The notes beneath the pieces were generated by a model that was given only the letters and a program-made list of their open reading frames with translations, was not told the DNA's origin and ran no database searches. Both the position numbers and the translations under genes were made by a program. 64,000 bases of DNA from Aestuariivita sp. (GTDB lineage: Bacteria; Pseudomonadota; Alphaproteobacteria; Rhodobacterales; Rhodobacteraceae): NCBI GenBank assembly GCA_018401465.1, contig JAGYKE010000004.1, positions 1,054,001-1,118,000 of the forward strand, given 5' to 3'. The first letter of the stretch is position 1, and every line of letters starts with the position of its first letter. This document shows, one piece after another, positions 21,343 to 44,391 of the stretch.

Positions 21343-21984
21343 ATGATCGTGCAATGGAACTGGAACACCTCGAACGGCTACAAGGTGGCCATCGCGCTGG
21401 AAGAGATGGGGCTGGAAAACCGCATCCATCCCGTGAACATCGGCCGGGACGAACAGTTTTCCGACGCCTTCTCGGCGCTGACCCCCAACAACAAGATCCC
21501 CGTGATCGTCGACGAAGGCGGCCCCGGCGGCGCGCCGATCACCATCTTCGAATCGGGCGCGATCCTGACCTATCTCGCGCGCAAGTCTGGGATGTTCTGG
21601 CCCAAGGGCGAACGCGACCAGATCGAGGCGCTGCAATGGATGTACTGGCAGATGTCGGGGATGGGCCCGAACTTTGGCCAGTTGCATCATTTCAACCGGG
21701 TGGCCCCCGACGATCAGGTCTATGGCCGCCAGCGCTTCACGACCGAGGTGCGGCGCCTTTACGGCGTGCTGAACCACCGCCTTGAAGGCCGTGATTTCAT
21801 CATGGGCGATTATTCCATCGTGGACATGATGTGCTGGCCCTGGGTGGCGCGGCATGAATGGCAGAAGGTCGATCTGGCCGACTTTCTCAATGTGAAACGC
21901 TGGTTCGACGCCATCGGCGCGCGCCCCGCGGTGATCAAGGCGCGCGCTGACCTCGATTCCGCCTGCAAGGCGGCGGCCGGTTAA
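21343..21984 (+). CDS. glutathione S-transferase family protein (Nu-class, YfcG/YghU-like)
   Basis: A 213-aa protein with an N-terminal thioredoxin-like GST domain (NTSNGYKVAIALEEMGL, NNKIPVIVDEGGP, ITIFESGAILTYLARKSG) and an all-alpha C-terminal domain containing YWQMSGMGPNFGQLHHF, characteristic of YfcG/YghU disulfide-bond reductases. The family often uses two glutathiones and reduces disulfides or peroxides. Its stop converges on putA with a 4-bp overlap. Confidence 0.87.
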   Translation: MIVQWNWNTSNGYKVAIALEEMGLENRIHPVNIGRDEQFSDAFSALTPNNKIPVIVDEGGPGGAPITIFESGAILTYLARKSGMFWPKGERDQIEALQWMYWQMSGMGPNFGQLHHFNRVAPDDQVYGRQRFTTEVRRLYGVLNHRLEGRDFIMGDYSIVDMMCWPWVARHEWQKVDLADFLNVKRWFDAIGARPAVIKARADLDSACKAAAG

Positions 21985-24900: not shown

Positions 24901-25442
24901 CGTCTCACGGCCTCGTCGACCGTTTCTCCCAGCACGAATTGCGCGCCCAGTTCCTTCATCGCGCGGCCCACGGCGGCGCGGATCACCGGTTCCCCCAGCC
25001 GCTTGACCGCACCTTTCAGGACCGAGGCCATCCCTTCCCCGTCCTGCAGCACCTTGCCGGTCAGCAGAAGCGCCCAGGTCGAGGCATTGACCAGCGGCGA
25101 GGACGACTTGCCCAGATGCGCCCCCCAGGCCGAGGGCGCGATCTTGTCTTCGATCAGCGCGTCGATGGTGCCCGCGTCGGGCACCCGCAACAGCGCCTCG
25201 GCCAGGCACATCAGCGCGACGCCTTCCTTGGTGGACAGGCCGTATTCGGCCAGGAACACCTCCATCAGGCTCGGATCGTCGCCCGCCCGGATCGCGCGGA
25301 CCAGATCGGCGGCGCGCGCGGTTGCACGGGCGCGTGTCTCCTCCTCGATCCCTGCCTCTCGCATGAGCGTGTCGAGAATGTCGGCGTCGGGGGCGAGTGT
25401 CTGGGCGCGGATGCGGTCGCGCAGGGGGGCAAGCGGGGTCAT
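21981..25442 (-). CDS. putA: bifunctional proline dehydrogenase / delta-1-pyrroline-5-carboxylate dehydrogenase PutA
   Basis: A 1153-aa trifunctional-type PutA without the N-terminal ribbon-helix-helix DNA-binding domain. The proline dehydrogenase barrel covers about residues 120-460 (GISIKLSALHPRYE, GLNIDAEEADRLDLSLD, RLVKGAYWDTEIK, YPQFATHNAHT, EFQRLHGMG). The aldehyde dehydrogenase domain follows, with CISPWNFPLAIFTGQ, FTGSTATAQRINRAM, ETGGLNAMIVDS and the catalytic Cys in SAGQRCSALR; a C-terminal flap domain ends the protein. It oxidises proline to glutamate. ATG 25442 has GAGG upstream; an earlier GTG (25469) does not. Lack of the DNA-binding domain agrees with control by the divergent putR. 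Confidence 0.97.
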   Translation of the reverse strand: MTPLAPLRDRIRAQTLAPDADILDTLMREAGIEEETRARATARAADLVRAIRAGDDPSLMEVFLAEYGLSTKEGVALMCLAEALLRVPDAGTIDALIEDKIAPSAWGAHLGKSSSPLVNASTWALLLTGKVLQDGEGMASVLKGAVKRLGEPVIRAAVGRAMKELGAQFVLGETVDEAVRRGRKKETQGYTFSYDMLGEAAMTMHDADAFFGAYARAIDRLAPECRSDDIRANPGISIKLSALHPRYEMAQRDRVLTELVSRTLTLARAARDARMGLNIDAEEADRLDLSLDVIESVLSDPSLAGWDGFGVVVQAYGKRAAPVLDWLHALAESLDRRIMVRLVKGAYWDTEIKRAQVEGLAGFPVFAQKAATDVSYLACAKKLLGMTDRIYPQFATHNAHTVAAILEMGDDPQAFEFQRLHGMGEALHDKVIAGNATRCRIYAPVGAHRDLLAYLVRRLLENGANSSFVNQIVNEAIPPETLAADPFAQLGKAHRAVRLPADLYAPGRANSKGFDLRDPVDLARIEAARDPFRTHLWEAAPMLAGQATGGARHPVLNPANPADEVGSVTLSAPEDVEAALAEATAWDAAPAARADILNRAADLYETAFGEIFALLAREAGKTPRDAVAELREAVDFLRYYAARADQPAPARGVFACISPWNFPLAIFTGQIAAALAAGNGVIAKPAEATPLIAARAVALLHEAGVPRTALQLLPGEGAVVGTAITSDPRIAGVCFTGSTATAQRINRAMADHLAPTAPLIAETGGLNAMIVDSTALPEQAVRDIVTSAFQSAGQRCSALRMLYVQKDVADTVLRMLFGAMDELSAGDPWDHTTDIGPVIDRRAQGGIQAHVEAARARGRVLKELRRPSKGSFVAPTVIAVDGIADLKREVFGPVLHVARFDAGDLDRVVDAINATGYGLTFGMHSRIDDRVEQVTRRLAVGNIYINRNQIGAVVGSQPFGGEGLSGTGPEAGGPHYVPRFTQAPRKAAEVAAGRMVDASVVQALLRALPRPDTVLTTVSLPGPTGESNRLSEFGRGLVLCLGPDAGAARAQMQAARANGCLGIGIAPGLSGDTTLDGVLDPGALTTLDGFDAVISWADDDTLRAMRRALATRDGRLIPLFAEDDLTARLRIERHVCVDTTAAGGNAGLLAEMS

Positions 25443-25488
25443 GTCGGCCTCGGAAACTGGAGATGGCACAGCATATCCGATTTCGTTT

Positions 25489-30189: not shown

Positions 30190-31314
30190 ATGGGAAACGA
30201 CCTTCGCGAATTCGGAAGCGCTGAGCGGCACACGCAGGCGCGCCGCAACGAGCGCAAGATCCGTGTTCTTGCCGTCGATGACGAGCCGAGCATCCTCGAG
30301 CTGCTCAGGACAGCGCTGAACGCGCTGGGCACCTATGACGTAACGGTCGCCGCCTCAGCCGATCAGGCCGTTCAGGTGATGGAGCGTCAGGAGCACTCCT
30401 TCGACTGCGTGCTGATGGACATCCAGATGCCCGATGTCAACGGCATCACCCTTGTGCGCGAGATGCGCGACTATGCGCGTACGCCCATCATAATGCTGAC
30501 CGCCATGTCAGATCGTACCTATGTCGATCAGGCCTTTGCGGCGGGCGCCACCGACTATGTGACCAAACCCTTCGATCTTCTGGAACTGCGTTCGCGCCTC
30601 GGTACCGCGACAATGCTGGTGCTTGAACAGGACCGCGCCCGCGATAGCATCGCGGTTGCGAAGAAGCTCAAGGACGAGCTCGAGACGAACTTGCAGTTCA
30701 GCTTCGACGATCCTGTGGTGATCGAGGAAATCGACAACCTGCTCGGATATGCCGAGTTCGAGAACTACATCATCCAGTTGTCGCAGGGCCGTCTGTTCAA
30801 CAGCGTCGCGACCGGTGTGAAGATCGTCGATGCGGCAGACCATTATGCCCGCATGTCGTCGAGCGAATTCCGCCAGATGATTCAGGATGTCGCCACTGCC
30901 ATCGCCAAGCAGATGCGCAAGACGGGCAACTTGATCTCGTACCGTGGCAAGGGTGCCTTTGTCACCGTCAGCCACAAGCGGGCCGAGGCGCTGGATCCCG
31001 GGGCTGAAAAGCACCTCAACCAGATCCTTGGCACGCTGCGGTCCCGCTTCCGGGATACGCACGAGATCGTGCTGACCGTCGGGGAACCTGTCTCGATGCG
31101 GTCGCTGACGAAGTATGGCGCGCTGCAATCGCTGACGCGCGCGCTCGAGGTGACCTCAGGTCAGGTGGTTCCGGCCCGGCAGATCGCAGCGATGTCGCAG
31201 CGGGCGTTTTCGTCGCGCGGGCGCAGTTCGGCCGAGGCGCATCTTGAACGCCGCGCCTACGAGACGATTCTGAACGACCTTCTGCGCGACGAACCGACGC
31301 TGCGCAGTTCCTGA
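30190..31314 (+). CDS. response regulator with degenerate GGDEF-like output domain (paralogue A)
   Basis: A 374-aa protein. The receiver domain (residues about 23-145) has the acidic pair D30/D31, phosphoacceptor D77 in CVLMDIQMP, T104 and K126 in YVTKPFD, so it should be phosphorylatable. The C-terminal half (about 185-330) has the layout of a GGDEF domain: a VKIVDAADHYARMSSSEFRQM segment where active cyclases have DxDxFKxxND, then LISYRGKGAFVTV where they have RxGGDEFxxL. The catalytic GGDEF and metal residues are gone. The paralogue at 40822 has the same domain. It converges on the GTPase operon with 20 bp between stops. DNA binding is not suggested. Its kinase partner is unknown; the nearest is at 41938. 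Confidence 0.8.
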   Translation: MGNDLREFGSAERHTQARRNERKIRVLAVDDEPSILELLRTALNALGTYDVTVAASADQAVQVMERQEHSFDCVLMDIQMPDVNGITLVREMRDYARTPIIMLTAMSDRTYVDQAFAAGATDYVTKPFDLLELRSRLGTATMLVLEQDRARDSIAVAKKLKDELETNLQFSFDDPVVIEEIDNLLGYAEFENYIIQLSQGRLFNSVATGVKIVDAADHYARMSSSEFRQMIQDVATAIAKQMRKTGNLISYRGKGAFVTVSHKRAEALDPGAEKHLNQILGTLRSRFRDTHEIVLTVGEPVSMRSLTKYGALQSLTRALEVTSGQVVPARQIAAMSQRAFSSRGRSSAEAHLERRAYETILNDLLRDEPTLRSS

Positions 31315-31334: not shown

Positions 31335-32126
31335 TCAGCTTTTCCCGAAAAGGGCTGTCAGCCGGGCCTCAAGGTCGGGCCAGTCCTGCGCCGTGACGCG
31401 CGCCAGCGTGACGCGTTCCCCCGTGCGCGCAAGAAGAAGCCCGTCCGCCCCGGCACCGTCCAGATGCAGCCAGCCCGCCAACCGCCGCCCATCAAGCGCC
31501 GCGCCAAAAAGCGGGTCGAGATCCTGCGCCATGTGCAGCGACAGCTTGGCCAGCTCGCGCGCGACCTCTTGCGCGCCGCCCTGCGCGGCGATCTGGCCGG
31601 GTGAGGCAAGCCGTACCCAGCCTGTCGACAGCGCATCAAGCGCCCGGGCCAGCCCGGTCCCGATGTCGGGACCGGGATCGGCCGGTGCGGGCAGATCCAG
31701 CGCTATGGCCAGATGGGTGGCGCCGCATCCCGTGAACGTCTCGGGCGTGCGGTCAAGACGCCGCACGACCAGCCCGAGCGTGCGTGACGCGCCCAGATGC
31801 GTGGTCAGGGCCCGCGCGACAATGCGCGCGGCGTCGTCGGGCGCATCGGGCAGAGGGCCTTCCCTCCCGGGCAGGGCAAGAACGCGCCGCCCCGCCACAT
31901 CAAGCCGCAGCCCCGTCCCGTCTGGATGGCGAAGTTGGATCTGCCGCGGCAGGATCGTCTCGTCGATCTCGGACAGGATTGCAGAAAGGAGCGCCTCTCG
32001 GCTTTCGTTGCTCAGACGGCGCAGCGGATCTGCCGCCTGCGGCAGCGGACCGCGCAGGCGGATCAGCCGCGCACGCACAAGGTCCGGGGGCGGTGCCGCC
32101 CGGGGCTGGGCGGGCAGGGCGGTCAT
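31335..32126 (-). CDS. unknown protein, last gene of the kinase-GTPase operon
   Basis: A 263-aa soluble protein I do not recognise. It has no signal peptide or membrane segment. It begins with a Pro/Ala-rich stretch, then an Arg/Leu-rich region (LRRLSNESREALLSAILSEIDETI), alternating hydrophobic strands (GLRLDVAGRRVLAL, TLGLVVRRLDRTPETF) and a C-terminal part (REVARELAKLSLHMAQDLDPLFGAALDG near 190-215). Its start overlaps the stop of the Roadblock-like gene (ATGA), so it should be co-translated and probably works with the GTPases. Confidence 0.6.
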   Translation of the reverse strand: MTALPAQPRAAPPPDLVRARLIRLRGPLPQAADPLRRLSNESREALLSAILSEIDETILPRQIQLRHPDGTGLRLDVAGRRVLALPGREGPLPDAPDDAARIVARALTTHLGASRTLGLVVRRLDRTPETFTGCGATHLAIALDLPAPADPGPDIGTGLARALDALSTGWVRLASPGQIAAQGGAQEVARELAKLSLHMAQDLDPLFGAALDGRRLAGWLHLDGAGADGLLLARTGERVTLARVTAQDWPDLEARLTALFGKS

Positions 32127-32497
32127 GACAGGCGCGCCAGATCGCGCAGCGTCGCGCGCGCGCGCGTGGCTGCCAACTCGGCATCGGTCGGCGCGTCGAA
32201 GACGCAGAACAGCGCATCGCCCCCATCATCGGCGCGCAGGAACAGCGACAGGTGCCCGTCGCGCATTGCCGTCGTCCGGGTCAGGCGCGGCAAGCCGAGT
32301 GCCCGGGCAGCAATCCTGGCCCCGGGTCCGCAAAGGCAGGTATCGGCGGCAAGGCAAAGCGCATCCAGAACCTCGCGCGGGTGGCGGGTGGCCGAGGCGC
32401 TTGCCAGCACCAGCCGCGCGTCCAGATCACCATAGGCGACCAGCGTGCAGCCCGGCAGGTTGCGGCGCAGGGTTTCGAGTGTTTCGGTCACCGTCAT
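32123..32497 (-). CDS. small Roadblock/LC7-like protein next to GTPases
   Basis: A 124-aa protein with the secondary-structure pattern of Roadblock/LC7 (MglB-like) domains: helix (ETLETLRRNLP), strand pair (CTLVAYGDLDARLVLASASA), helix (REVLDALCLAADTCL), strands (HLSLFLRADDGGDALFCVFDA) and a C-terminal helix (ELAATRARATLRDLARL). Roadblock proteins bind and regulate small GTPases. It is flanked by ATGA overlaps with the GTPase gene at 32494 and the unknown gene at 31335. The assignment is by pattern only; a profile search would be needed to settle it. Confidence 0.5.
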   Translation of the reverse strand: MTVTETLETLRRNLPGCTLVAYGDLDARLVLASASATRHPREVLDALCLAADTCLCGPGARIAARALGLPRLTRTTAMRDGHLSLFLRADDGGDALFCVFDAPTDAELAATRARATLRDLARLS

Positions 32498-33333
32498 ACC
32501 GGACGAACCCCGGAGGATGGACGGATGCGGCGCGTTCCATCGGGCTGCGGGCGGACGCGCTGAGGCACGATGCGGTCAATCGCACCGGTGTCGCGCGCGC
32601 GGGCAAGATCGATGGGTGCCACGGGTGGATCGCCGGGTAGATCGATGCCGACGGGCAGCGCGATCTCACCGTTGAGGATCAGATCGAGCAGACCGCAAAC
32701 GAAAGCTTCCGCCCCGCTGCGCACCCAGCGGTGACGATCCTCGCCCGCCTCGATCGCATCGAGCAGCGACACGGGATAGATTGCGCAGAACCGCGACCCC
32801 GCCTCGGCCCTGAGGCGGGTCATCACGCGGGAGCGGTCGCGATCATTGGTCAGCTTGTCCCAGCGCGAGACGACAAGAAGGCCGTTTCCCTTCAGGCCTT
32901 CCGGCAGACTGTCCCAGGCTGCGGCCTCGCTCTGCCGCCAGGCCTGGGTGGCGTGGGTGCACCAGATCATGATGTCCGCGGCGCCGATGACGTCACGCCA
33001 GACGGTACTGTCCCTGTTCGGATCGGAAATGCCGGGCATGTCGACCAGATCGCACAGGTGCAAGATATCGGCCTCCATCCGCAGCCGGACCAGCCGCGTG
33101 TCTTCAGGCGCGATCTCGGCCAACCCGCCCGGGGGCAGGGGGTGGAGCTCGCCCGCGTGATCCTCGCGGTCTCCGCCTTCGGGGCCCGCGCTGATCCGGA
33201 CCGGCGGCAGCCGCGTCGCGGTGATACGCACGGGCAGGGGTGCGGCTCCCAGAAGCAGGTTGGTCAGCGTGCTCTTTCCGGCGCTGAACTCGCCCATGAG
33301 GGCGACTATGGGCTTGGGGCGGGCTTCCCTCAT
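32494..33333 (-). CDS. dynamin-like/TRAFAC GTPase, short form
   Basis: A 279-aa P-loop GTPase: G1 GEFSAGKS (residues 14-21), a likely G2 threonine around TATRLPPV, G3 LVDMPGISD (DMPG 98-101) and a G4-like VVSRWDKL (SRWD 156-159 instead of NKxD). ADIMIWCTHATQAWRQSE follows G3. There is no membrane segment. ATG 33333 overlaps the stop of the large dynamin-like gene (ATGA); a TTG at 33342 is less likely. Its ADIxxWCT region is shared with the GTPase at 35529, suggesting they are paralogues. Confidence 0.8.
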   Translation of the reverse strand: MREARPKPIVALMGEFSAGKSTLTNLLLGAAPLPVRITATRLPPVRISAGPEGGDREDHAGELHPLPPGGLAEIAPEDTRLVRLRMEADILHLCDLVDMPGISDPNRDSTVWRDVIGAADIMIWCTHATQAWRQSEAAAWDSLPEGLKGNGLLVVSRWDKLTNDRDRSRVMTRLRAEAGSRFCAIYPVSLLDAIEAGEDRHRWVRSGAEAFVCGLLDLILNGEIALPVGIDLPGDPPVAPIDLARARDTGAIDRIVPQRVRPQPDGTRRIRPSSGVRPV

Positions 33334-35414
33334 GCGGCGCAATCCGACAGGTGTTCCATCGTTTGGGCCAGATCCTGCGCCGCGCCGTTCGCCCCGGACC
33401 AGCTGATTGCGGCGCGCAGCCCGCCCTCACCTTCAGCGGCGCTGCGGGCAATGCCCGCGATGGCGTCGCGCTGCCCGGTGACGAAATCGTCGAACTGGCG
33501 CAGAAGGCCCTCGTGCAGGGTGCGCGCCTGATCTTCGGTCAGCTCGGACAGGATGGCACCGGTTTCGGCCCCGATCATGGCGCGGAAGCTGTCAGTGAAG
33601 GCGCGGTAGCCGCGCGTGCGCTGCCACCAGCCCGTCCACCAGCTGTCCTTGAAGTCGAGCGCGATGGTCTGCCCGAGGGTGATGGGCGCGGCAGGTTCGG
33701 GCGATTGCGGCGCGGCGATGGTCAGCCCGTCGACCGCAGCGCCGAAGGCGCGCGCGTAAAGCCCGGCGATGTCTTCCGCCACGGCGTCGAAGGCGGCCTG
33801 CGCCGCCCCGCGCGATTGGGTCGCGAAGACGGTATGGGCAGACCGCAGCAGCAGGCGCAGGCCCATCGGGTCGTAATGCCAACTTGGCGTGCGCCCGTTC
33901 ACCTCGAGATGCCGGATCAGCGATTGCGTCGCGCGGTCGAGGAAATTGTCATGCGCCCGTGTCGCGCGCGTGCGGAACGTGTCGAGACCGCGCGCCAGCG
34001 CGTCCTCCAGTTCGGTCCGTCTTGCCGCCGCCAGCCCGGCCAGATCATGGTCGATGCGGGCGGGGTCCGGCAGGCTGCCTTCGCCGGTCGCGCTCACCTT
34101 CACTGACTGGGCCAGCCGCAACCCCGAAGCGAGGTTCATCGCCGCCCGCGCGATCCGGCTCAGCGCCTCATGGCCCGGCCCTTCGGCGATGCGCGCCGAC
34201 AGCGCGGCGTAAAGGTCGGGCAGGCCCGAGAGCGTCCAGATCATGCCGGCGGCATCCTCGTCATGGTCGCCCGGGCCAAGGCGGGCCGCGGCCCAGGACA
34301 TCAGCGCGTCGCGGCTGGCGTCGGGCATCGCGTTGATCTGGTTGGCCAGAACCCGCGTCGCCCAATAGGCGCTGCCGAAGACGATCTGCGCATCCTCGGG
34401 GCCGCCGCGCGCTTTCAGCGTGGCGGCGATGCTGTCGCGGATTTCTGGCACCTGCGTTGCGGGGTCCGACAGTTCGTCGATCCGGTTGACGAAGATCACG
34501 AGGTCACGCGCCCGCAGGGTCGAGATCATGCGGATCACGCCCATGTCGACCGCCGTCAGCGCCTGATGCGCCGACAGCACGACGACGCAGACCTGGCTGT
34601 CGCGCAGCGCCTGAAGCGTGACCTGTTCACGCATCATGAAGGTGTCGTTCACCCCGGGCGTGTCGCGCAGGCACAGCGGCACCGGAAGCGCGGGGGCATG
34701 CAGGAACAGATCGGCCGACCGGGTGATGTCGGCAAAGCGGCCCTGATCGGCGGATGCCATTCCCGCGTCACCGGGGGAATAGAGGTCGCCCAGACAGATG
34801 TAGCGTTCCACGAGGTTCTTGTCGAAATAGCCGTAATCGTGGGTCTGACCCAGAAGCAGTTCGAACCGGCGGCCGAGATGGCGGCGCGAGGCGTCGCGCA
34901 TCGCTTCGATCTGTTCGCGGATCCTCTGCAATTCGCCCGCCGCGCCCGCGCGGTCGGCCAGTTCGCCCAGCTTGCCGCCCTTGGCCATGAGCCGGTCCCA
35001 TTCATCGGCCCCGAAGAAGGTGAAGGCGGCACGGCTCGTGCCTTCGGCCATGTCGGGGCGCAGGTGAAGCGAGGTCACGACCGACGTCCAGGGGTTGACG
35101 TCTGACGGAAGCAGGTCGGCCCAGCCGGACATGGCGTTGACCAGCGTGGTCTTGCCCGACTTGACCTGCCCCAGAAGGGTAACGGCAGGTTCCAGCGCGG
35201 CAAGCTGGTCGCGCAGGCGCTGGACGGCGCGCCGGTGCGCGGCGTCGCCATGCCGCGCGAGGTCGGCCAGCGCGGCATCAAGCTTGTGCGCGCGCGCGCC
35301 CAAAGCGCCAAGCGGCTCCATCCCGCGGCGCAGCAGGCTTTGTCGCAGGGCGCGGGCCGTGTCGGCTTGCAGTGACGCGTCTTCCGTCATGGTCATGCGG
35401 TTGCCCCAGATCAT
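33330..35414 (-). CDS. dynamin-family large GTPase
   Basis: A 694-aa Dynamin_N-type protein. A helical N-terminus (residues 12-76) precedes G1 GQVKSGKT (82-89), SDVNPWTSVVTSL (probable G2), G3 LCLRDTPGVND (near 250) and G4 VIFVNRIDEL (near 310). The C-terminal half is helical, with a Trp-rich stretch KDSWWTGWWQRTRGYRAF around 605-622 that could contact membrane, as paddle regions of bacterial dynamin-like proteins do. No clear transmembrane helix is seen. ATG 35414 has GCGGAAAGG upstream; ATGs at 35396 and 35390 are alternatives. It lies between two smaller GTPases of the same operon. Confidence 0.83.
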   Translation of the reverse strand: MIWGNRMTMTEDASLQADTARALRQSLLRRGMEPLGALGARAHKLDAALADLARHGDAAHRRAVQRLRDQLAALEPAVTLLGQVKSGKTTLVNAMSGWADLLPSDVNPWTSVVTSLHLRPDMAEGTSRAAFTFFGADEWDRLMAKGGKLGELADRAGAAGELQRIREQIEAMRDASRRHLGRRFELLLGQTHDYGYFDKNLVERYICLGDLYSPGDAGMASADQGRFADITRSADLFLHAPALPVPLCLRDTPGVNDTFMMREQVTLQALRDSQVCVVVLSAHQALTAVDMGVIRMISTLRARDLVIFVNRIDELSDPATQVPEIRDSIAATLKARGGPEDAQIVFGSAYWATRVLANQINAMPDASRDALMSWAAARLGPGDHDEDAAGMIWTLSGLPDLYAALSARIAEGPGHEALSRIARAAMNLASGLRLAQSVKVSATGEGSLPDPARIDHDLAGLAAARRTELEDALARGLDTFRTRATRAHDNFLDRATQSLIRHLEVNGRTPSWHYDPMGLRLLLRSAHTVFATQSRGAAQAAFDAVAEDIAGLYARAFGAAVDGLTIAAPQSPEPAAPITLGQTIALDFKDSWWTGWWQRTRGYRAFTDSFRAMIGAETGAILSELTEDQARTLHEGLLRQFDDFVTGQRDAIAGIARSAAEGEGGLRAAISWSGANGAAQDLAQTMEHLSDCAA

Positions 35415-35521
35415 CCTTTCCGCAGGTTCCGGCCGGTCCGGTTGCCCGGCGCCCGGACGAAGTTTCCCGCCGCAAGATCGCCCATCAACATGGTGAGATT
35501 GCGGCAGGCTTCCGGCGACAC
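35411..35521 (-). CDS. possible 36-aa microprotein in the only gap of the kinase-GTPase operon
   Basis: From GTG 35521 (or ATG 35491, 26 aa) a frame runs to a TGA that forms ATGA with the dynamin-like gene's start at 35414. Every other junction between 31335 and 37768 is an ATGA overlap, so this frame would complete the coupling. The peptide is Arg/Asn/Gly-rich at its end (APGNRTGRNLRKG). No clear Shine-Dalgarno is seen and I know no homologue. It may simply be a leader or untranslated spacer. Confidence 0.22.
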   Translation of the reverse strand: MSPEACRNLTMLMGDLAAGNFVRAPGNRTGRNLRKG

Positions 35522-35528
35522 CGCGCCA

Positions 35529-36767
35529 TCAGGCCACGGTGCGGTCGGCCATGTCCTTCTTCAGCTGCAACAGAAGGGTCACGGCATCGGTGGCCGCGTC
35601 TTCGGATCGTTCAAGCTGCAGCAGAAGCATCATGTCGGCGCTTTCCTGAATGTCGTCCTGAATTCCGGTCAGCGCCGCATCCTCGCGCGCGAATTCGCCC
35701 AGAAGATCGGACAGCGTCGTCGCCGTTTCCAGGCAATGTGACAGCACATGCGCGCAGTCGTCAGAGGCGGTCATGTCGAGTTCGGACAGCAGCCGGTCGG
35801 CGCGGTCCTGCAGATAGGCCAGCGCTTCGGCCAGAACCTGCGCGCGCTGCAGCTCCGCTGCCGCATCCGGGGTGGCCGCATCCGCTCCGGCATCGGCGGC
35901 AGGGGCCGCGGGGCGCGGCGGGGCTGTCCGGCCTGCCGGATGGCCCATCGCGGCGGCGTAGCGGCTCAGGAACAGAAGCGCGTTGTCGGCATCGGCGCGC
36001 CGTCCGGTTTCGACCAGACGCAGCACCGCGTCGTGCAGCGCGCGGCCACCGCTTGCGGCCCAGAGGTCGTTCTGCGTCTGCCCCGCATCGGAGCGCGCCG
36101 AAATCGCCTGATTCGTCGCGACGGGAAACAGGCTGTGGAATTCCTGCGCGACGATGACCGACAGGTCGGCCAGCCGGTCCTGCAACTGGCCCTTCATCAG
36201 CAGGTGATCGGCCTTGGTCAGCACGAGAAAACTGTGATCCTTTAGCGTGTCGGGTGCCACCGCCCAAAGCGCGCGTTCGATCGCGTCGAAGCCCTGCGTG
36301 CACCACAGCACGATGTCGGCCCGCTCAAAAGCCCAGTCCGCCACCGCGCGCATCGCCTCGGGCGGTCCCTGAAGGGTGACTTCGGTCAGGGTCATGCGGG
36401 TCAGAAGCGGCACCGGCAGTTCCACCCGCATCATCGCGGCGTCCTCGGGAAGGTCGCTGCGCACGCCGTCGGTCCAGTCCTCGATCCGCGAATCCTCGCG
36501 CAGCAGAAGCTGGCGGTCGCGCGGGCCGTGCATCACCTCGAAGGCGGGCAGGTCGGCCACGGGCCGGGGCAGGGGACGGCCCAGAAGCATGTGGATCAGG
36601 CGCGACTTGCCCACCTGAGGCTTGCCCAGGACGACCACGTTGACCGGCGTCTTCAGCCGCTCCAGCAGGCGCGCGCCATGCAGACGCGCCTCGCCCGGGA
36701 CGCGGTCCGAGGCCAGAGCCGCCGCAAGCGTTTCGACGACGTGGTCCAAGATCATGGGCTGGGTCAT
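35529..36767 (-). CDS. P-loop GTPase with degenerate G3 motif
   Basis: A 412-aa protein with G1 GKPQVGKS at residues 48-55 and a G4-like TKAD at 184-187, but no DxxG at the expected G3 site, where LTEVTLQGPPE occurs. The segment RADIVLWCTQGFDAIERALW parallels the GTPase at 32494. After residue 270 a Pro/Ala linker leads to a helical tail with coiled-coil character (LAEALAYLQDRADRLLSELD and MMLLLQLERSEDAATDAVTLLLQLKKDMA). It overlaps the PP2C stop (ATGA). It could be a regulatory or pseudo-GTPase; nucleotide hydrolysis is uncertain. Confidence 0.75.
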   Translation of the reverse strand: MTQPMILDHVVETLAAALASDRVPGEARLHGARLLERLKTPVNVVVLGKPQVGKSRLIHMLLGRPLPRPVADLPAFEVMHGPRDRQLLLREDSRIEDWTDGVRSDLPEDAAMMRVELPVPLLTRMTLTEVTLQGPPEAMRAVADWAFERADIVLWCTQGFDAIERALWAVAPDTLKDHSFLVLTKADHLLMKGQLQDRLADLSVIVAQEFHSLFPVATNQAISARSDAGQTQNDLWAASGGRALHDAVLRLVETGRRADADNALLFLSRYAAAMGHPAGRTAPPRPAAPAADAGADAATPDAAAELQRAQVLAEALAYLQDRADRLLSELDMTASDDCAHVLSHCLETATTLSDLLGEFAREDAALTGIQDDIQESADMMLLLQLERSEDAATDAVTLLLQLKKDMADRTVA

Positions 36768-37768
36768 GCGGATTTTGCGGCCTTCCGCCGGACGTGACAG
36801 AACATCGACAGCCCCTCGCGCGTGCGCCGCGCCATCAGGGTGATCCGGCCGGGCGATGTCTCGGAGGGGCCGGGGAAGGCTTCGGTCGCGGCGATGGGTC
36901 GGGGTGTGTCGGGCACCACCTCGGGCGCAGGCGCGCGGGGTACAGCGGGGGCGGGTCTGGCGGCCTCGCCGACGATCTTGATGACGCAGACCGACACGTT
37001 GTCCTGTTCCGGATCGGCCAGCGCGTCCAGTGCGCGGATCAGGCAGGCGGTGATTTCGGCGCTGGGGCGGTCGGCCATGTCCTGTATCAGGCCTTCGATC
37101 TCGCTGTTGTCGAGGAACTGCAGCCCGTCGGATGCCACCACGATGATATCGCCATGCTGCAACGTCACGGGCCGGCTGGGGCAGTCGATCCGGGGAATGG
37201 CGCTGCCGATCAGAACCGAAGTCAGGCAGTGCCGGTCGGGATGGCCTGCGCCGGTGTCTTCAGGCATCAGACCGCGCCGGACCAGCATGTCGATCTGGGA
37301 GCCGAGCGAATGGTCTTCGTTCAACTGGCGGAGGTGACCATCGCGGAAGAGGTAGAGTGGTGAATCGCCTACCGAAATCCAGTAGAGTCGGTTGCGCACC
37401 AGCACCGGTGCGACCAGCGTCGCCCCCATGCCGAAGCTGGCGGGGTTCGCGTTTGAATGCATCCGCACGCAGCTGTTCGCGGCCTGCGCGGCTTCGGTGA
37501 GGATACCTGCGATGTTGCGCTCCAGACCCTCGGCATCGCCGCTTTGCAGCTTCAGCTCGCTGAAGACCTCGGTCACGACGATCTTGCTGGCGACATCGCC
37601 CGATGCGTGCCCCCCCATCCCGTCTGCCAGCACGCAGAAGCCGACGTCATGACCCAGCGGGAAATCCGCGAGCACGGCATCCTCCTGGGCGTCGCGCTGA
37701 CCCAGGGACAGGGCCGACGCGACGTCATAGGTGAAGTTAGCGGCCACTTGCATGGTCTGAGGCGCCAT
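36764..37768 (-). CDS. PP2C-type serine/threonine phosphatase
   Basis: A 334-aa PPM/PP2C phosphatase. R25 and D30 lie in GQRDAQEDAVLADF, D49-G50 in LADGMGGHASGDVAS, then GMGATLVAPVL, IVVASDGLQFLDN and the final metal ligand in EQDNVSVCVIKI; the two-metal site appears complete. A Pro-rich linker (about 255-300) and a basic C-terminal tail follow. ATG 37768 (GGGATCAGG upstream) overlaps the FHA gene by 32 bp; ATG 37753 is an alternative. It should reverse the phosphorylation made by the kinase encoded upstream. Confidence 0.92.
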   Translation of the reverse strand: MAPQTMQVAANFTYDVASALSLGQRDAQEDAVLADFPLGHDVGFCVLADGMGGHASGDVASKIVVTEVFSELKLQSGDAEGLERNIAGILTEAAQAANSCVRMHSNANPASFGMGATLVAPVLVRNRLYWISVGDSPLYLFRDGHLRQLNEDHSLGSQIDMLVRRGLMPEDTGAGHPDRHCLTSVLIGSAIPRIDCPSRPVTLQHGDIIVVASDGLQFLDNSEIEGLIQDMADRPSAEITACLIRALDALADPEQDNVSVCVIKIVGEAARPAPAVPRAPAPEVVPDTPRPIAATEAFPGPSETSPGRITLMARRTREGLSMFCHVRRKAAKSA

Positions 37769-38699
37769 CCTGATCCCAGTTGAAGTCGCTGTCGCAGAAG
37801 GCCGCAAAGCGCAACGTCGTCTCTCCGATCCGAATGAGCGCACCGTGCGACATGGGCTCGGTGCTCAGGACCGGACGGTTATTGAGGCGCACCATGTTGG
37901 CCTTGCCGCCATGACCCAGATAGAAGGTGCCTTCCTCGGGGTCATAGGCCAAGGCGGCATGATTGCTGCGCGAAATCGCCGTATCCCCGAAATCGAGCCG
38001 GATCGTCTGATCCTCGCCCCGGCCGATCTGGGACACACCGGACGACAGGGTGAAGGCATGGCCGCGACCGGGGCCCGACACGATGACCAACCAGCCCACG
38101 GGAAAGCGGGGCTGGTCGACCCCGATGGCACGCTGAGCGAAGGGATCGCGCGCGGCCATGTCGCCGCCGAAGCCCAGAAGCCGCGTCTTGACGCGGCCAG
38201 CGGAAGGCGCCGACCGGCCGCTTGCGGGGGCGGGCATCTCGACCAGGTCCGCGGGCCGGGACATCGGTTCGGCTGGCGATGGTTCGGGTGAGGTAATCGC
38301 GGCAGAGCGTCCCGATACCGGTGCGGTGACACGCGCCGGGTCGGGGTGCGGCAGTTCCGACATCGCGTGCTCCGGCGGTGTCGGATCGGCATAGCGCGAC
38401 CAATCTCGCGGAGGGACATGCATGGTGCCATCGGCGTCCCGGTCCGCGTTGTCGAATTCATGATCGGCGAACAGGTTGTCATCCCCGTCGGCAGCGGCCC
38501 GGTTCAGCAGGTCGTCAAGCCGGTCGGGGCCTTGGCGGGACAGGGGCGCATCATCCTCGCCCGTCAACAGGCGCTCGACGAGGTCGTCTGTCCCGCTCTC
38601 TCCGGACGAGACGCGGGTATAGGTGCGGTTGGCGGCCACGGTGCCCACGCGGCCTGAGTCGCTTGCGCGTTCGTCGATGATCGATCGGATGAAATTCAT
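37737..38699 (-). CDS. FHA-domain phosphothreonine-binding protein
   Basis: A 320-aa protein. Residues 1-190 are low-complexity and acidic with many Thr, Ser and Pro (possible kinase targets). Residues about 200-305 form an FHA domain: GWLVIVSGPGRGHAFTLSSGVSQIGRGEDQ, ISRSNHAALAYD (the SRxH core) and NMVRLNNRPV, with the phosphothreonine-contact Arg, Ser and Asn in place. FHA proteins dock to phosphorylated partners. It lies between kinase and phosphatase genes, forming a complete write-read-erase set. Confidence 0.9.
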   Translation of the reverse strand: MNFIRSIIDERASDSGRVGTVAANRTYTRVSSGESGTDDLVERLLTGEDDAPLSRQGPDRLDDLLNRAAADGDDNLFADHEFDNADRDADGTMHVPPRDWSRYADPTPPEHAMSELPHPDPARVTAPVSGRSAAITSPEPSPAEPMSRPADLVEMPAPASGRSAPSAGRVKTRLLGFGGDMAARDPFAQRAIGVDQPRFPVGWLVIVSGPGRGHAFTLSSGVSQIGRGEDQTIRLDFGDTAISRSNHAALAYDPEEGTFYLGHGGKANMVRLNNRPVLSTEPMSHGALIRIGETTLRFAAFCDSDFNWDQDGASDHASGR

Positions 38700-38721
38700 G
38701 TCGCGGGTCCTTGCTGCGGCG

Positions 38722-40035
38722 TCAGACGGTGCGGCGCGGACGCGCCGATGCGCTGCCGCCTGCGATTCGCTGGATCAGGGATTTCAGGAAACGCGGCCGC
38801 GCGGGCAGTCGGGGCTGCTGTGCAACGGCTTCGGCCGGGCACCGGGCGCGTTCGGCCTCGGACAGGGCGCGCTCCTGCTCCTTGAGCCAGGCTTCGACGT
38901 CGTGGATCGGATTGCCGAAGATATCGACCGGGGTGCCCGGTTCGAGGCGGTTGCCCGCCATTTCGCGCGCCGTCATCGGCCCGCGGATCGGGCGGAGACT
39001 TGCCGGGCGCATGCGCGCATCGCCGGGGCGGCCCTGTTCGAGGTCGCGGTTGGTGTCCTCGACCAGTTGCGAAATGGCCTCCGCGATCCCGGACTGGGCC
39101 GCGTCTTCACTCGGGGGTTCGTCCGATTCGATCTCGTTCAGCCAGTCATTGGCGGACTGCACGCGGTTCTCGGGGAAGACTTCGAGCGCCTTGTCGATCA
39201 TCCGCAGAAAGGTCCTGCCGAAGCCCTTGATTCGGCCTTCCAGCGGGAGATAGGGGTCGGCGGCGTCCGCGGCGATGGCGGCCAGCCGGTCCTGGCTGTG
39301 AGGCGGCGCCTCGCCGGTGATGACATGGTAGAAGGTCGCACCGAGCGCGTAGAGATCGCTGGCCTGCGTCTGGCCGACACCCGAGATGTAGAATTCCTGT
39401 GGCGAATATCCGTCCTTCACCGCCAGAAGCGCCGAAAGGGCGCGATGCGCCTTGGTCATATGTTCGCGGGCTGCGCCGAAGTCGATCAACGTCAGGTGGT
39501 TGTCCCAGTCCAGCAGGAAGTTGTCGGGCGAGATGTCGCGGTGAAGGATGTCCTTGCCGTGGATGTAGCGCACCGCCTTCAAGGCCTGCATCATCAGGTC
39601 GTGGATGAGCGCGGGCGTCAGGCGTTCGGGTTCTTCCTCGATCACGGTCAGCAGGTCGATCCCATCCAGATAGTCGAGCGCCATGTAGGCGGTGCCGTTT
39701 TCCTCGAACACCTGATGGACGCCGACGATGTGCGGATGGCTCAGCCGCGCAAGACGGCGCGCCTCGCGCAGGAAATGGCGGCATATCGCGTCGAACTGTT
39801 TGGACTGGTCGCGCAGCCGCGCGGCGACCTGCCCGTCCTTGCGGTGACATATCGTGTTGGGAAAGCATTCCTTGATGACGACGCGCCGGTCCAGACTGTC
39901 GCGGGCGAGGTAGGTTATTCCGAACCCGCCGCGCACCAGATACCGTTCGACGATGTATTGGCCGTGAAGCAGCGACGTCCCCGGTGCCAGCTCATCGGTT
40001 TCGCTGTCGTCGTAGATGATCTGTCTTGTCTGCAT
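38722..40035 (-). CDS. soluble Ser/Thr protein kinase (Hanks type)
   Basis: A 437-aa kinase with glycine loop LVRGGFGITYLARD (33-46), K55 in VVIKECFP, alpha-C E91, catalytic HRD (165-167) in ILHRDISPDNFLLD and DFG (185-187) followed by GAAREHM; all catalytic residues are present. The APE-like motif is SPQEFY. No transmembrane helix or sensor domain is seen; the last 130 residues are polar with a basic end. ATG 40035 is chosen, while the frame is open to 40107. It is the first gene of the operon running to 31335. The kinase-FHA-PP2C trio is also found in type VI secretion clusters, but no secretion gene is present here. Confidence 0.92.
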   Translation of the reverse strand: MQTRQIIYDDSETDELAPGTSLLHGQYIVERYLVRGGFGITYLARDSLDRRVVIKECFPNTICHRKDGQVAARLRDQSKQFDAICRHFLREARRLARLSHPHIVGVHQVFEENGTAYMALDYLDGIDLLTVIEEEPERLTPALIHDLMMQALKAVRYIHGKDILHRDISPDNFLLDWDNHLTLIDFGAAREHMTKAHRALSALLAVKDGYSPQEFYISGVGQTQASDLYALGATFYHVITGEAPPHSQDRLAAIAADAADPYLPLEGRIKGFGRTFLRMIDKALEVFPENRVQSANDWLNEIESDEPPSEDAAQSGIAEAISQLVEDTNRDLEQGRPGDARMRPASLRPIRGPMTAREMAGNRLEPGTPVDIFGNPIHDVEAWLKEQERALSEAERARCPAEAVAQQPRLPARPRFLKSLIQRIAGGSASARPRRTV

Positions 40036-40594: not shown

Positions 40595-40821
40595 GATCTG
40601 TCCTTTCCCTGTGCCTGTGCCTGTGCACGCCCAACTGTGATCTGCGCGCTGCCGCCTTGCAAGATGCCTGACACTGGTCATGTGCCTGCCCAGTTCTGGG
40701 CGCATTCGGATTGTATTCCAGAGACCGGGACAGGATCGGGCGCCTTGCGCGGCGCTTCCGGCCGGTCTTCCGACAAAAACAGCATTGGCCGCTGCCTGCC
40801 CGGCGACGGCAGAGAGACAGC

Positions 40822-41856
40822 ATGAGAATTCTTGCGGTAGATGACGATCCCAGTATCCTCGAGGTGCTCGACGCGACGCTGAACGCGCTGGAAGGGCATG
40901 AGGTGACGACCGCCCTCTCGGGTGCGCGCGCGCTGCGGATACTCGACGGCGACAGCGAGCGCTTTGATTGCCTGCTGGTCGACATCCAGATGCCCGAAAT
41001 GAACGGGATCGACCTGTGCCGCGCAGTGCGCGCGCGCAGCGCCTATGGCAGGGTGCCCATCCTGATGCTGACGGCAATGTCCCAGCGCACCTACATCGCC
41101 GAGGCCTTCCGCGCCGGGGCGAGCGATTACATCACCAAGCCCTTCGACCTCATCGACCTGCGCACGCGGCTGTCTTCGGCGCTTCGCGACCAACGCCGCG
41201 AGGAACAGGCAGAGATACGCCGTGCCGATGTCGATTCTCCGATCGAGGTGCGCGGCGTTTCGCGCGTGCTGGGCCATTCTGAATACGAAAACTACGTGCT
41301 TCAGATCTCGCAGAGCCTCGGGTCGAAATCCTCGGTCGTGGCCATCAAGATCGCGGGGATCGACGCGCATTTCGCCGCGCTCGACGCGGACCGATTTCAG
41401 GCGATGATCAGTCACGTGGCGCGGGTCATTTCCAAGCTGACCCGGCAGAACGGGCATGTGATCTCGTATCGCGGGCAGGGTGTGTTCCTGTGCATCCGGA
41501 TCGGTCGGCAGGATCCCTTGCCGGCTTCGTTCGAGGCGATGATCAACCGTCATATCCAGTCAGGCGAAGCCATGATCGGAATCGGTCGCCCTGTCCTGAT
41601 CGTCCTCGGCGAAACGCTGACGCTGCACAGCGGGTCGAAGGCCCGCGCGCTCGATACGCTGACCTGGGCCATCTCCTCGGCCGAGGAAAAGAGCCTGCGT
41701 CTCGATCCCGCGCCCAGCGTGTCGAAACGTGTCCTGTCCAACGAAACTCGGAGCGAAGCCGAGCGCCTGTCGGACCGGCGCGCCTATTCGCGGCTGCTGG
41801 GCGACGTGCTGAACAGCGATCTGGGCGCAGCAGCCCCTCTGCGTCGGGCCAATTAA
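40822..41856 (+). CDS. response regulator with degenerate GGDEF-like output domain (paralogue B)
   Basis: A 344-aa paralogue of the protein at 30190. The receiver has D7/D8, phosphoacceptor D54 in CLLVDIQMP, T84 and K106 in YITKPFD. The output half repeats the GGDEF-like layout: LGHSEYENYVLQISQ, AIKIAGIDAHFAALDADRFQAM and VISYRGQGVFLCI, where active enzymes have GGDEF. It shares with paralogue A the SYRGxGxF motif and a C-terminal AxxLSDRRAYSRLLGDVL-type helix. It lies 81 bp upstream of the histidine-kinase gene in the same direction, so the two likely form a pair. Confidence 0.82.
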   Translation: MRILAVDDDPSILEVLDATLNALEGHEVTTALSGARALRILDGDSERFDCLLVDIQMPEMNGIDLCRAVRARSAYGRVPILMLTAMSQRTYIAEAFRAGASDYITKPFDLIDLRTRLSSALRDQRREEQAEIRRADVDSPIEVRGVSRVLGHSEYENYVLQISQSLGSKSSVVAIKIAGIDAHFAALDADRFQAMISHVARVISKLTRQNGHVISYRGQGVFLCIRIGRQDPLPASFEAMINRHIQSGEAMIGIGRPVLIVLGETLTLHSGSKARALDTLTWAISSAEEKSLRLDPAPSVSKRVLSNETRSEAERLSDRRAYSRLLGDVLNSDLGAAAPLRRAN

Positions 41857-41937: not shown

Positions 41938-43320
41938 ATGGCGTATTTGGATGCAAGCGTGGACGAGCTGCCCGGTGCCGGCCTTCCGTCACCCGCCGAA
42001 AGGCAGCTCAAGGATTATGTCCATAACATCAACGTCCTGATCTGGCAGCGTCAGGGCATCTTCCTAGCGGCCACCGGCCTCAGCGCCTATTACTTCGATC
42101 CCGTCCGGGCGGTGGCGTTGTACGGTGTCGTCCTGTTGACAGAAGTGCTTGATCTCCTTCTGGCCAAGCGCATCGAAGGCTGGACCGACCGCGATCCGCG
42201 CAAGGCGCGCGCGTTCCTGATTTGGATCCTCGCAAATACGGTGATCAGCGCGCTGGCCATCAGCGCCTTCGTCTTCACCATCGCACTGCAACAGCAAGGC
42301 GCGGGGCATTTCACGCCGCTCTTCTTCCTATTCGCCGCTGCCGTCTTCGCTGCGATGAACAATCACCAGCTCATGCCTGCGCTCGTAGTGCGTCTGTCGA
42401 TCTACGTGGTGACCTTCTTCCTGATCGTGCTTCTGGACATCTGGCGCTTCGATCCGCCACTGAAGTCGGAGCCTTGGCTGCAATTCTTTACCGTTCTCTT
42501 TGTGGTCTACTTCATCGCGGATTGTTCGTTCGCCTTCGTTCGGCTGTACCGCCAGCGGCTCCAGCAGCTCGAAGAGCTGGAACTGGAGCACGCCCGCACC
42601 AAGGCCGCCTACGAGGTGAAGTCGAAGTTCATCTCTACCGTCAGCCACGAGCTGCGCACGCCGCTGACGTCGATCAAGGGATCGCTCGACCTGCTCAATT
42701 CCGGGGCGCTGGGCGAGACGCCCGAAAAGATGGCGCCGATGCTGAACATCGCGGGCAAGAACGCCAAGCGGCTGGCCGACCTGATCAACGACCTGCTTGA
42801 TCTCCAGAAGATCGAGGCGGGCGAGATGGTCTACCGGTTCGAACGTATCTCAGTCGGTGACCTGATCCGCGACGCCGTCGAGGCCAATCAGGGTTTCGCC
42901 GACAGCCTTCAGGTTGGCCTGATGGATACGCCGCCCGAAGAGTCACTCTTCATTCAGGGGGACGAGGCACGGCTGATGCAGGTGATGTCGAACGTGATCT
43001 CGAACGCGCTCAAGTTCTCGCACAAGGGGTCTGCAGTCCGGGTCTACTCCGAACGCATCGACCGGCGCGTACGCATCTGTGTGAAGGACAGCGGCATCGG
43101 CATTCCGGCCGGCGCCAAGGAGAAGGTTTTCGGCAAATTCACGCAGGTCGACAATTCCGACCAGCGCCGCGTGGGCGGCACGGGGCTGGGGATGAACATC
43201 ACCAAGCAGATCGTCGAACAGCACAAGGGCGATATCGACTATGTTTCGCGCGAGGGGAAAGGCACGACCTTCTTCATCGAGTTCGACGTGGTCGATATCG
43301 AACCTGCCGTCGCCGCCTGA
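41938..43320 (+). CDS. membrane-bound sensor histidine kinase
   Basis: A 460-aa kinase. About six hydrophobic segments fill residues 40-205 without a sizeable periplasmic loop, so it may sense within the membrane. A short coiled coil precedes the HisKA box with phosphoacceptor H237 (STVSHELRTPLTS). The ATPase domain has N box NVISNALKFS, G1 DSGIGIP, F box FGKFTQVD and G2 GGTGLGMNI, so it is complete. It has no receiver of its own. It follows response regulator B and is closed by a strong terminator at 43343. Confidence 0.92.
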   Translation: MAYLDASVDELPGAGLPSPAERQLKDYVHNINVLIWQRQGIFLAATGLSAYYFDPVRAVALYGVVLLTEVLDLLLAKRIEGWTDRDPRKARAFLIWILANTVISALAISAFVFTIALQQQGAGHFTPLFFLFAAAVFAAMNNHQLMPALVVRLSIYVVTFFLIVLLDIWRFDPPLKSEPWLQFFTVLFVVYFIADCSFAFVRLYRQRLQQLEELELEHARTKAAYEVKSKFISTVSHELRTPLTSIKGSLDLLNSGALGETPEKMAPMLNIAGKNAKRLADLINDLLDLQKIEAGEMVYRFERISVGDLIRDAVEANQGFADSLQVGLMDTPPEESLFIQGDEARLMQVMSNVISNALKFSHKGSAVRVYSERIDRRVRICVKDSGIGIPAGAKEKVFGKFTQVDNSDQRRVGGTGLGMNITKQIVEQHKGDIDYVSREGKGTTFFIEFDVVDIEPAVAA

Positions 43321-43515: not shown

Positions 43516-44391
43516 ATGAAGCATTCCCGAACGACCGGGCCGGTGCAGCCGGCTTGGTCGGTCTTTCCTGAACTTGCGCCGGCCGAACCATCGGCCGCAG
43601 GGCTTCGCCGGCTCCGGCAAGAACAGCCCGTTCTGTCCCTTGTTTCCCGGGACGGACAGGCGACCGACAAGGGGCATATCCGGTCAAGCGTCCTGTCTTT
43701 CTCGAACCTGCACCGGCATGGAGATCTGTTCGCGGCCTACATGCGCGCCCGCAAGGATGTGTTCATCGACCGTCTGCACTGGACCCTGCCGGTTGCCGAC
43801 GGGATGGAATTCGACCAGTACGACACGCCGCTGGCGCGCTGGGTCGTGATCCACGAATTCGGAGAGGTTCTGGCGGGCGTGCGGTTTATGCCGACCACGG
43901 CGCAGGTCGGGCTGCATTCCTATATGCTGCGTGACGCGCAGCTGGGCCTTTTGCCCCATATTCCGACAGATGTGCTGTTCTTCAAGGCCCCCGTTCATGA
44001 CCGCATCTGGGAGGCGACACGCCTGTTCATCACCGATGCCGTGCCCGGTCACCGCCGTCAGGCCGTGCAGGCGGAACTGATGCGCGGCTTCGCCGCCACG
44101 GCGCGGGCGGGTGGGGCCGGTCATGTCATCGGCATCGTGCCAGCGGTCTGGTCGCGCTGGTTGCGCAGGCTGAATCTCGGCGCCGTTCCGGTGGGGCCGC
44201 AATTCTCGATCGACGGGACGCGGTCGCAGGCGGCGCTCTTCAACGTGTCGGGCCTTGCCGCCCGTGGCGTGATGAGGTTCAATTCCCGGCATGCGCCTTG
44301 CTTTGTATCTCGCACTTTTTCTGTCCGGGACCGGCCTTTCGGCGGGGCCGCTCGAGCAGGAGATGGCGCTTGCCAAGCAGATTCTGACTGA
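43516..44391 (+). CDS. acyl-homoserine-lactone synthase (LuxI family), orphan
   Basis: A 291-aa autoinducer synthase. The LuxI invariant residues are all visible: R79 and F83 (RARKDVFIDRL), W89, D100 and D103 (EFDQYD), R123 (GVRFMPTT), and the Glu/Arg pair in WEATRLFI. An N-terminal extension of about 70 residues and a long C-terminal tail make it larger than typical LuxI (about 200-230 aa). The last 101 bases overlap the next gene in another frame, so the tail (after about residue 258) may be a recent read-through. No luxR gene is in the window. It would make an acyl-HSL from SAM and an acyl carrier. Confidence 0.85.
   Translation: MKHSRTTGPVQPAWSVFPELAPAEPSAAGLRRLRQEQPVLSLVSRDGQATDKGHIRSSVLSFSNLHRHGDLFAAYMRARKDVFIDRLHWTLPVADGMEFDQYDTPLARWVVIHEFGEVLAGVRFMPTTAQVGLHSYMLRDAQLGLLPHIPTDVLFFKAPVHDRIWEATRLFITDAVPGHRRQAVQAELMRGFAATARAGGAGHVIGIVPAVWSRWLRRLNLGAVPVGPQFSIDGTRSQAALFNVSGLAARGVMRFNSRHAPCFVSRTFSVRDRPFGGAARAGDGACQADSD

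Follow-up and report, generated by a model that had tools for sequence, protein, structure and literature searches.

What does a complete serine/threonine (Ser/Thr) phosphorylation set do in an operon that otherwise encodes dynamin-family GTPases and Roadblock-fold proteins? The question is raised by a locus of Aestuariivita sp. (Rhodobacteraceae; GenBank assembly GCA_018401465.1, contig JAGYKE010000004.1, from a genome of 3.74 Mb), lying in a stretch of 64,000 nucleotides (positions 1,054,001 to 1,118,000 of the forward strand) that we call the window and to which our coordinates refer. Eight genes, all on the minus strand, occupy positions 31335-40035 and read from 40035 down; in that order they encode a Hanks-type Ser/Thr kinase (g8), an FHA protein (g7), a PP2C phosphatase (g6), a protein of 412 amino acids (aa) best read as a degenerate P-loop GTPase (g5), a 694-aa dynamin-like GTPase (g4), a 282-aa dynamin-family GTPase (g3), a 124-aa Roadblock-fold protein (g2) and a 263-aa protein that probably ends in a second Roadblock-like domain (g1). 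The reading we favour, to which we give a probability of roughly 0.5, is that these genes specify a machine of dynamin-family GTPases that is gated by phosphorylation and regulated by Roadblock proteins, an eight-gene unit leading from signalling to mechanics. An earlier reading of the letters alone (hereafter the sequence-only reading) had listed eight or nine minus-strand genes, most of them overlapping; the operon stood, the count settled at eight, and five of the seven junctions do overlap. Four of these are ATGA overlaps (g6/g5, g4/g3, g3/g2 and g2/g1), the FHA and PP2C genes overlap by ~17 nt if the PP2C start is at 37753, and the two gaps are of 22 bp between the kinase and FHA genes and of 114 or 132 bp, by the start chosen, between g5 and g4.

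The arrangement is conserved, and numerous members of a mostly marine bacterial group carry it. Searching the genome collection with an alignment of the dynamin turned up at least 510 related stretches, the best 80 of which were kept and are thus by construction the closest relatives; in these, genes were detected with one iterated profile per gene, without an overlap filter. All eight genes were found in the same order and on the same strand in 65 of the 80 loci, and the remaining 15 each run into a contig end where the absent genes would stand; because of this, the eight-gene arrangement is not a product of chance and is one conserved unit. Gaps of 30 nt or less were seen, for the junctions in operon order, in 67/72, 76/76, 76/76, 23/77, 74/75, 22/73 and 69/73 loci, counts that use longest-open reading frame (ORF) starts and are therefore biased toward overlaps. 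All 80 loci are titled Rhodobacteraceae or belong to genera that we take to be Rhodobacterales. The sequence-only reading had made conservation of the order beyond close strains its own decisive test, and the order is retained across many genera. More distant loci reshuffle the parts yet can hold them together: on a Leisingera plasmid (L025) g4-g3-g2-g1 and g8 to g5 stand as opposed blocks, and on a Ruegeria plasmid (L026) the order is g4-g3-g2-g1-g4'-g5-g8-g7-g6, with duplicated dynamins.

The three genes at the head of the operon had been read as a complete kinase-FHA-PP2C set, and the domain matches bear this out. The kinase g8 (38722..40035, minus strand; the longest ORF extends to 40107) matches Pkinase in Pfam (8.9e-33), and the HRD and DFG motifs are present in 72 of the 73 rows of its family, window included, the exception being a gap row. 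The phosphatase g6 (36764..37843, minus strand; probable start ATG at 37753) matches PP2C_2 (3.7e-12), with QED, DGMG and SDG each kept in 77/77 rows, again with the window among them. Between these, g7 (37737..38699, minus strand) has a poorly conserved N-terminal part and an FHA domain (3.3e-6) in which the GR motif is found in all 77 rows, that of the window included. The NCBIfam models for Stp1-type PP2C, PknB-like kinases and FhaB/OdhI-like FHA proteins gave matches too, every one under its cut-off. Judged by its catalytic and binding motifs the write-read-erase set appears intact. In addition, N-terminal to the FHA domain we identified a KTRLLGF-type motif in 76 of the 77 g7 proteins, the 77th being a 101-aa fragment, and in seven of eight further g7 relatives from other loci, the protein of the Ruegeria locus L026 having no match by pattern. 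FHA domains prefer pTxx(L/I) ligands, and as the +3 residue is L in 73 of the 76 motifs and I in the other 3, which fits such a ligand, we consider the threonine of this motif, T172 of g7, a candidate phospho-switch residue.

The 694-aa protein had been called a dynamin-family GTPase, and its domain match agrees with this. In Pfam g4 (33330..35414, minus strand; start by alignment 35396) and g3 (32494..33342, minus strand; start ATG at 33333) both match Dynamin_N above its gathering score (1.1e-10 and 6.8e-11, respectively), and other P-loop GTPase models match both more weakly; the model, cited in the sequence-only reading as PF00045, is correctly PF00350. Against solved structures the g4 profile matched BDLP1 (2j68, 2e-9) and 5owv (6.1e-9), presumably the Campylobacter dynamin pair, in both cases in the GTPase domain, with GTPase Der weaker, and the P-loop, DTPG and NRxD motifs are present in 79 of 80 rows, window included, the remaining row being a gap. 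By these profile matches and GTP-binding motifs g4 classes as a protein with a dynamin-type GTPase domain. Its length stays near 690 aa across relatives, and it carries a tryptophan cluster (W592, W593, W596 and W597; WWxxWW at residues 592-597, followed by basic residues) that is invariant in 33/33 closer relatives; in the more diverse alignment A1 (14 rows) W593 is the only one of the four that is invariant. The helical moment of the cluster is unremarkable (0.30-0.36), for which reason we dropped an amphipathic-helix interpretation; the cluster is a possible membrane contact. The shorter g3 has no long helical part and keeps the P-loop GEFSxGKS in 76/76 rows, window included. As to the third GTPase, g5 (35529..36767, minus strand) matches MMR_HSR1 at 17.4 bits, below the cut-off of 21.9, and its family keeps the P-loop and a T-x-A-D motif, with DxxG not conserved; since its relatives in two variant loci match Dynamin_N (L019, 1.3e-8; L020, 3.9e-10), g5 too is best read as a dynamin-family protein, in degenerate form. 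Of the two smaller P-loop GTPases proposed from the letters, then, the 282-aa one was borne out and the 412-aa one proved a weak, sub-threshold and degenerate member. Among all gene pairs, over the window and the 65 loci with all eight genes, 66 sets in total, g4 and g5 show the best correlation of distances (0.86), which fits a physical pair, although the length of the two proteins also favours such a correlation. No Ras-type model matched the operon GTPases in Pfam at E 0.1, the matches being to Dynamin_N or to a weak P-loop GTPase model.

The Roadblock/LC7 assignment of the sequence-only reading is correct for g2 (32123..32497, minus strand), by fold only. In Pfam this protein matched just one chance-level model (E 0.051), and a profile search of the PDB with the g2 family returned noise only. 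In the window genome the sole Robl_LC7 match lies outside g2 and below the cut-off; 9 of 14 control genomes were positive, 3 above the cut-off. The AlphaFold model, however, scored a predicted local distance difference test (pLDDT) value of 95.3 and has the element order alpha-beta-beta-alpha-beta-beta-beta-alpha of Roadblock proteins. Foldseek placed MglB/Roadblock chains at the top (best 3.5e-6), with all 39 rows below 1e-4 being MglB, MglC, Roadblock or Ragulator/LAMTOR chains, and VIA-align gave Z scores of 15.8-17.2 against 3kye, 9jue and 1j3w over 117-118 residues (root mean square deviation (rmsd) 2.2-2.4). On this model, g2 has the Roadblock/LC7 fold over its full length. The 263-aa product of g1 (31335..32126, minus strand), set down earlier as an unknown protein, has no Pfam match; a weak PAXX match (E 0.04) and scattered Pfam matches, mostly confined to a single member, were taken as noise. 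Its AlphaFold model (pLDDT 87.8, predicted template modelling score (pTM) 0.59) shows the Roadblock element order in the C-terminal half; the best Foldseek match was to MglB (3.6e-4), the top matches being to MglB, Ragulator and other Roadblock chains, and VIA-align returned mostly Roadblock chains (Z 9.2, 110 residues aligned, rmsd 3.9). The C-terminal part, approximately residues 154-263, is thus probably a second, weaker Roadblock-like domain, which extends the earlier description by a moderate match. The N-terminal part is an alpha/beta domain (residues 36-142); the fold-search rows were all taken by matches to the C-terminal domain.

These matches bring in the main rival to our reading, a polarity or positioning switch in which the GTPases, controlled by Roadblock proteins and by phosphorylation, would mark a site in the cell, without membrane remodelling. 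As in the operon, a Roadblock-fold protein is encoded beside GTPases in the MglA-MglB (and MglC) polarity module, and MglB structures rank among the best matches of both g2 and g1, MglB and other Roadblock proteins being the closest structural relatives of g2. The lack in g3 of the long helical part of dynamins would suit such a switch, and the response regulators and histidine kinase linked to the operon in some loci (see below) recall RomR of the Mgl system, as far as the available part of its description goes (PMC6785124). However, the GTPase of the Mgl module is Ras-like, whereas the GTPases next to the Roadblock-like proteins here match Dynamin_N or, weakly, a P-loop GTPase model, none being a Ras-like MglA; the operon has two Roadblock-like proteins and includes a Ser/Thr phosphorylation set; and the maintenance of g4 near 690 aa, with its conserved tryptophan cluster, is at odds with a role confined to marking a site. 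We regard the switch as a possible but rather unlikely account.

The distribution of the genes ties g2 to the dynamin. The dynamin is present in 11 of 61 relatives, including a genome of the same genus with the relative on a 24,700-base contig (G001), and more widely its profile matches 98 of the 292 genomes sampled from the order, in 41 of 113 genera. The g2 profile matches 88 of the 292, all within the 98 with g4, so that g2 was seen only with g4; in 87 of the 88 it lies within 10 kb of the dynamin, the two being on different contigs in the remaining genome (G131). Because the loci behind the g2 profile had been retrieved by way of the dynamin, more distant free-standing relatives of g2 would be missed by these counts. 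No g4 match was obtained outside its own Genome Taxonomy Database (GTDB) family either in a sample of the class (2/289 match at E 1e-15) or in one of the phylum (4/249 at E 1e-8), all these matches being in that family; in both samples at most four candidates were scored per genome, and the negatives are listed in shortened form. The co-occurrence tables for g4, g2, VipB and the flanking histidine kinase were compiled by manual comparison of lists, and the Fisher tests were run on those counts.

The patchy presence (98/292 genomes) and the occurrence of dynamin relatives on plasmids could also point to a role in conflict or phage defence, in which a dynamin effector licensed by the phospho-switch would damage or seal the membrane. 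PADLOC models lend this some colour, that for LeoA (of the Eleos defence, LeoA/LeoBC) matching g3 at 2.2e-9 and those for PD-T4-6 matching g8 at up to 7.4e-47; however, the best stretch of the LeoA match covers residues 6-36 only, that is, the region of the P-loop, and the matches of g8 look like those that any Hanks kinase would give. A known defence system was rejected since the matches were only generic or to P-loops, and a phage origin since there was no close relative in viral contigs searched with patterns from a single window protein. The very constant gene order, the lack of a hypervariable part and the typing of 18/18 plasmid records as non-mobilizable likewise speak against an anti-phage role, which we judge improbable. 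These plasmid records (H1-H18; Leisingera, Ruegeria and Rhodobacter) all carry dynamin relatives; the kinase trio is present in four of the five plasmid neighbourhoods viewed, and Leisingera sp. S132 has two versions on two plasmids.

A further possibility lies in the kinase-FHA-PP2C logic itself. The threonine phosphorylation pathway of type VI secretion systems (T6SS) uses a kinase, an FHA protein and a PP2C phosphatase, so that there, as here, the three occur together as a write-read-erase trio controlling a machine, and the operon might accordingly be thought a T6SS regulator set that has drifted from its secretion system. VipB was found in 79 of the 292 genomes and together with g4 in 33 of the 98 with g4, against 26.5 expected (Fisher p 0.09), a slight excess that would suit such drift. 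The window genome, however, has no VipB match, 65 of the 98 genomes with g4 likewise lack one, and the output genes of the operon encode GTPases. Given this and the small overlap we rejected a role as a T6SS accessory and consider descent from a T6SS set very improbable; of the parallel drawn in the sequence-only reading, the shared logic stands and the tie to T6SS does not.

How, then, might the eight proteins work together? Because the gene order is kept, g2 is linked to g4 and the variants L025 and L026 keep parts together, we read the operon as a single unit, probably with a controlling role at the cell membrane. In the phosphorylation-gated machine that we favour, the kinase g8 would write, and the phosphatase g6 erase, a phosphothreonine, most likely at T172 of g7; the FHA domain of g7 would then alternate between binding to itself and binding to a partner, and g7, through contact with the dynamin-family GTPases, would gate them. 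The long g4 would be the membrane-acting member, with g3 and the degenerate g5 as its short partners, and g2 and the C-terminal half of g1, possibly as a heterodimer, would contact the GTPases as a platform or as regulators, as MglB does for MglA. Several results weigh against this reading. Ten of the 98 genomes with g4 are without a detected g2; a profile search with the C-terminal 364 residues of g4, which bears on whether it has the helical neck, trunk and membrane paddle of bacterial dynamin-like proteins, matched no solved structure at E 1; the Pfam listing for 66 proteins of the g2 family, 24 families in all, does not include Robl_LC7 (PF03259); and the match of g1 is modest (Z 9.2, pTM 0.59), with profilins, which have a similar fold, also in its list (Z 6.9-7.5). 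Finally, five of a set of 15 loci (L019, L020, L022, L023 and L027, all divergent and the last cut by the record start) have dynamins and no kinase trio in the fetched stretch, which suggests that the trio is dispensable for the dynamins. This last result would also be expected if the kinase trio and the dynamin/Roadblock set were two unrelated units that merely share a locus; however, the linkage survives the rearrangements in L025 and L026, the order is constant and the GTPase gene g5 stands directly behind the trio, so that we think a mere sharing of the locus quite improbable. A bolder version of the phosphorylation-gated machine, which we offer only tentatively, is that the two different Roadblock proteins would form a Ragulator-like platform for dynamin-family GTPases and that the kinase-FHA-PP2C set would, via T172, time the assembly of the dynamin on the membrane, making the operon a new category of machine. 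Overall, the observation of the sequence-only reading was confirmed and its interpretation was supported in part.

Among described systems, the actinobacterial conservons, which comprise the histidine kinase CvnA, the Roadblock protein CvnB, CvnC and the Ras-like GTPase CvnD (PMC4316618), similarly join a kinase, a Roadblock protein and a GTPase in one conserved block. As far as the available text of that paper defines them, the operon differs in having a Hanks kinase, FHA protein and PP2C phosphatase in place of the histidine kinase, GTPases of the Dynamin_N type, eight genes, and a host among the Alphaproteobacteria, and so falls outside the conservon definition. The DO-GTPase/GAP1 conflict systems, in the available part of their description, likewise have paired GTPases with a dedicated associated protein (PMC7159879); however, neither family is in our Pfam listing, and the GTPases here are constantly accompanied by FHA/PP2C and Roadblock proteins. 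The word dynamin is absent from the main texts of these two papers in the form available. Bacterial dynamin-like proteins (BDLP1, 2j68; 5owv) resemble the products of the operon in that the g4 profile matches their GTPase domain and in that long and short relatives stand side by side; in the open-licence literature we found no published link of such proteins to a kinase trio or to Roadblock proteins. The sequence-only reading knew of no described system with this combination, and in the same literature, by titles and abstract openings, we too found no description of it, or of dynamins in this bacterial group. Because the operon has no Ras-like GTPase and no T6SS, we class it as a variant of Roadblock-coupled GTPase signalling that stands outside the MglAB, conservon and T6SS-trio families.

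In some relatives the signal may come from outside the cell. No membrane or hydrophobic segment was predicted in g8, and one was found in 5 of 72 homologues. The kinases of L025 and L026 are larger than g8, each with one hydrophobic segment; kinase homologues with such a segment and a long C-terminal part lie at L025:21868-23814, L026:20572-22755, L101:4496-6670 and L103:3319-6219, and also in L104 and L106. The long C-terminal part of the L025 and L026 kinases looks PDZ-like by eye, and a Pfam scan of the homologues of L025, L026, L101 and L103 gave no further domain. Near the L025 and L026 kinases, both in plasmid loci, are annotated substrate-binding proteins; of two so annotated in L025, one has a LysM domain in Pfam and the other no match. 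The larger kinases with their hydrophobic segment, along with the annotated substrate-binding proteins nearby, suggest that homologues of the L025/L026 type are receptor-type versions responding to an external signal.

In the window the operon is bracketed by two paralogous response regulators, beyond which lie a membrane histidine kinase and a LuxI-type synthase-like protein, none of them core parts. All four are on the plus strand: a response regulator at 30190..31314 (Response_reg 5.3e-30, with a sub-threshold GGDEF-like match in its C-terminal part), its paralog at 40819..41856 (Response_reg 7.4e-28), the histidine kinase at 41938..43320 (HisKA and HATPase_c) and the LuxI-type autoinducer synthase-like protein at 43516..44391 (Autoind_synth 2.5e-14). 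Relatives of these genes (blastp E 1e-6 with more than half of the query covered; orthology not proven) were found near the operon, on either side, in the same 17 of 80 loci for both regulators, in 19/80 for the histidine kinase and in 15/80 for the LuxI-type protein. The N-terminal part of the histidine kinase was found in 70 of the 292 genomes and together with g4 in 24, against 23.5 expected (Fisher p 0.89); in 8 of these 24, the window's included, the two genes are within 10 kb. As this co-occurrence is at chance level, we rejected a dependence of the operon on the flanking histidine kinase, response regulator and LuxI cluster and regard the histidine kinase as a linked neighbour and not a core part. 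Elsewhere in the window a PutA-type proline dehydrogenase/aldehyde dehydrogenase is encoded at 21981-25469 (minus strand); the plus-strand ORF of equal length that covers this gene is probably a shadow frame, no Pfam model matching it.

To our knowledge, the control of bacterial dynamin-like proteins is poorly known. In this operon an entire predicted chain of control, which includes one near-invariant candidate phosphosite (T172), adjoins a dynamin-like protein whose profile is matched in about one third of the genomes sampled from the order. If our reading is true, Roadblock proteins would in this case serve GTPases of the dynamin family, and a bacterial dynamin would be controlled by Ser/Thr phosphorylation, an arrangement otherwise reminiscent of the control of membrane traffic in eukaryotes.

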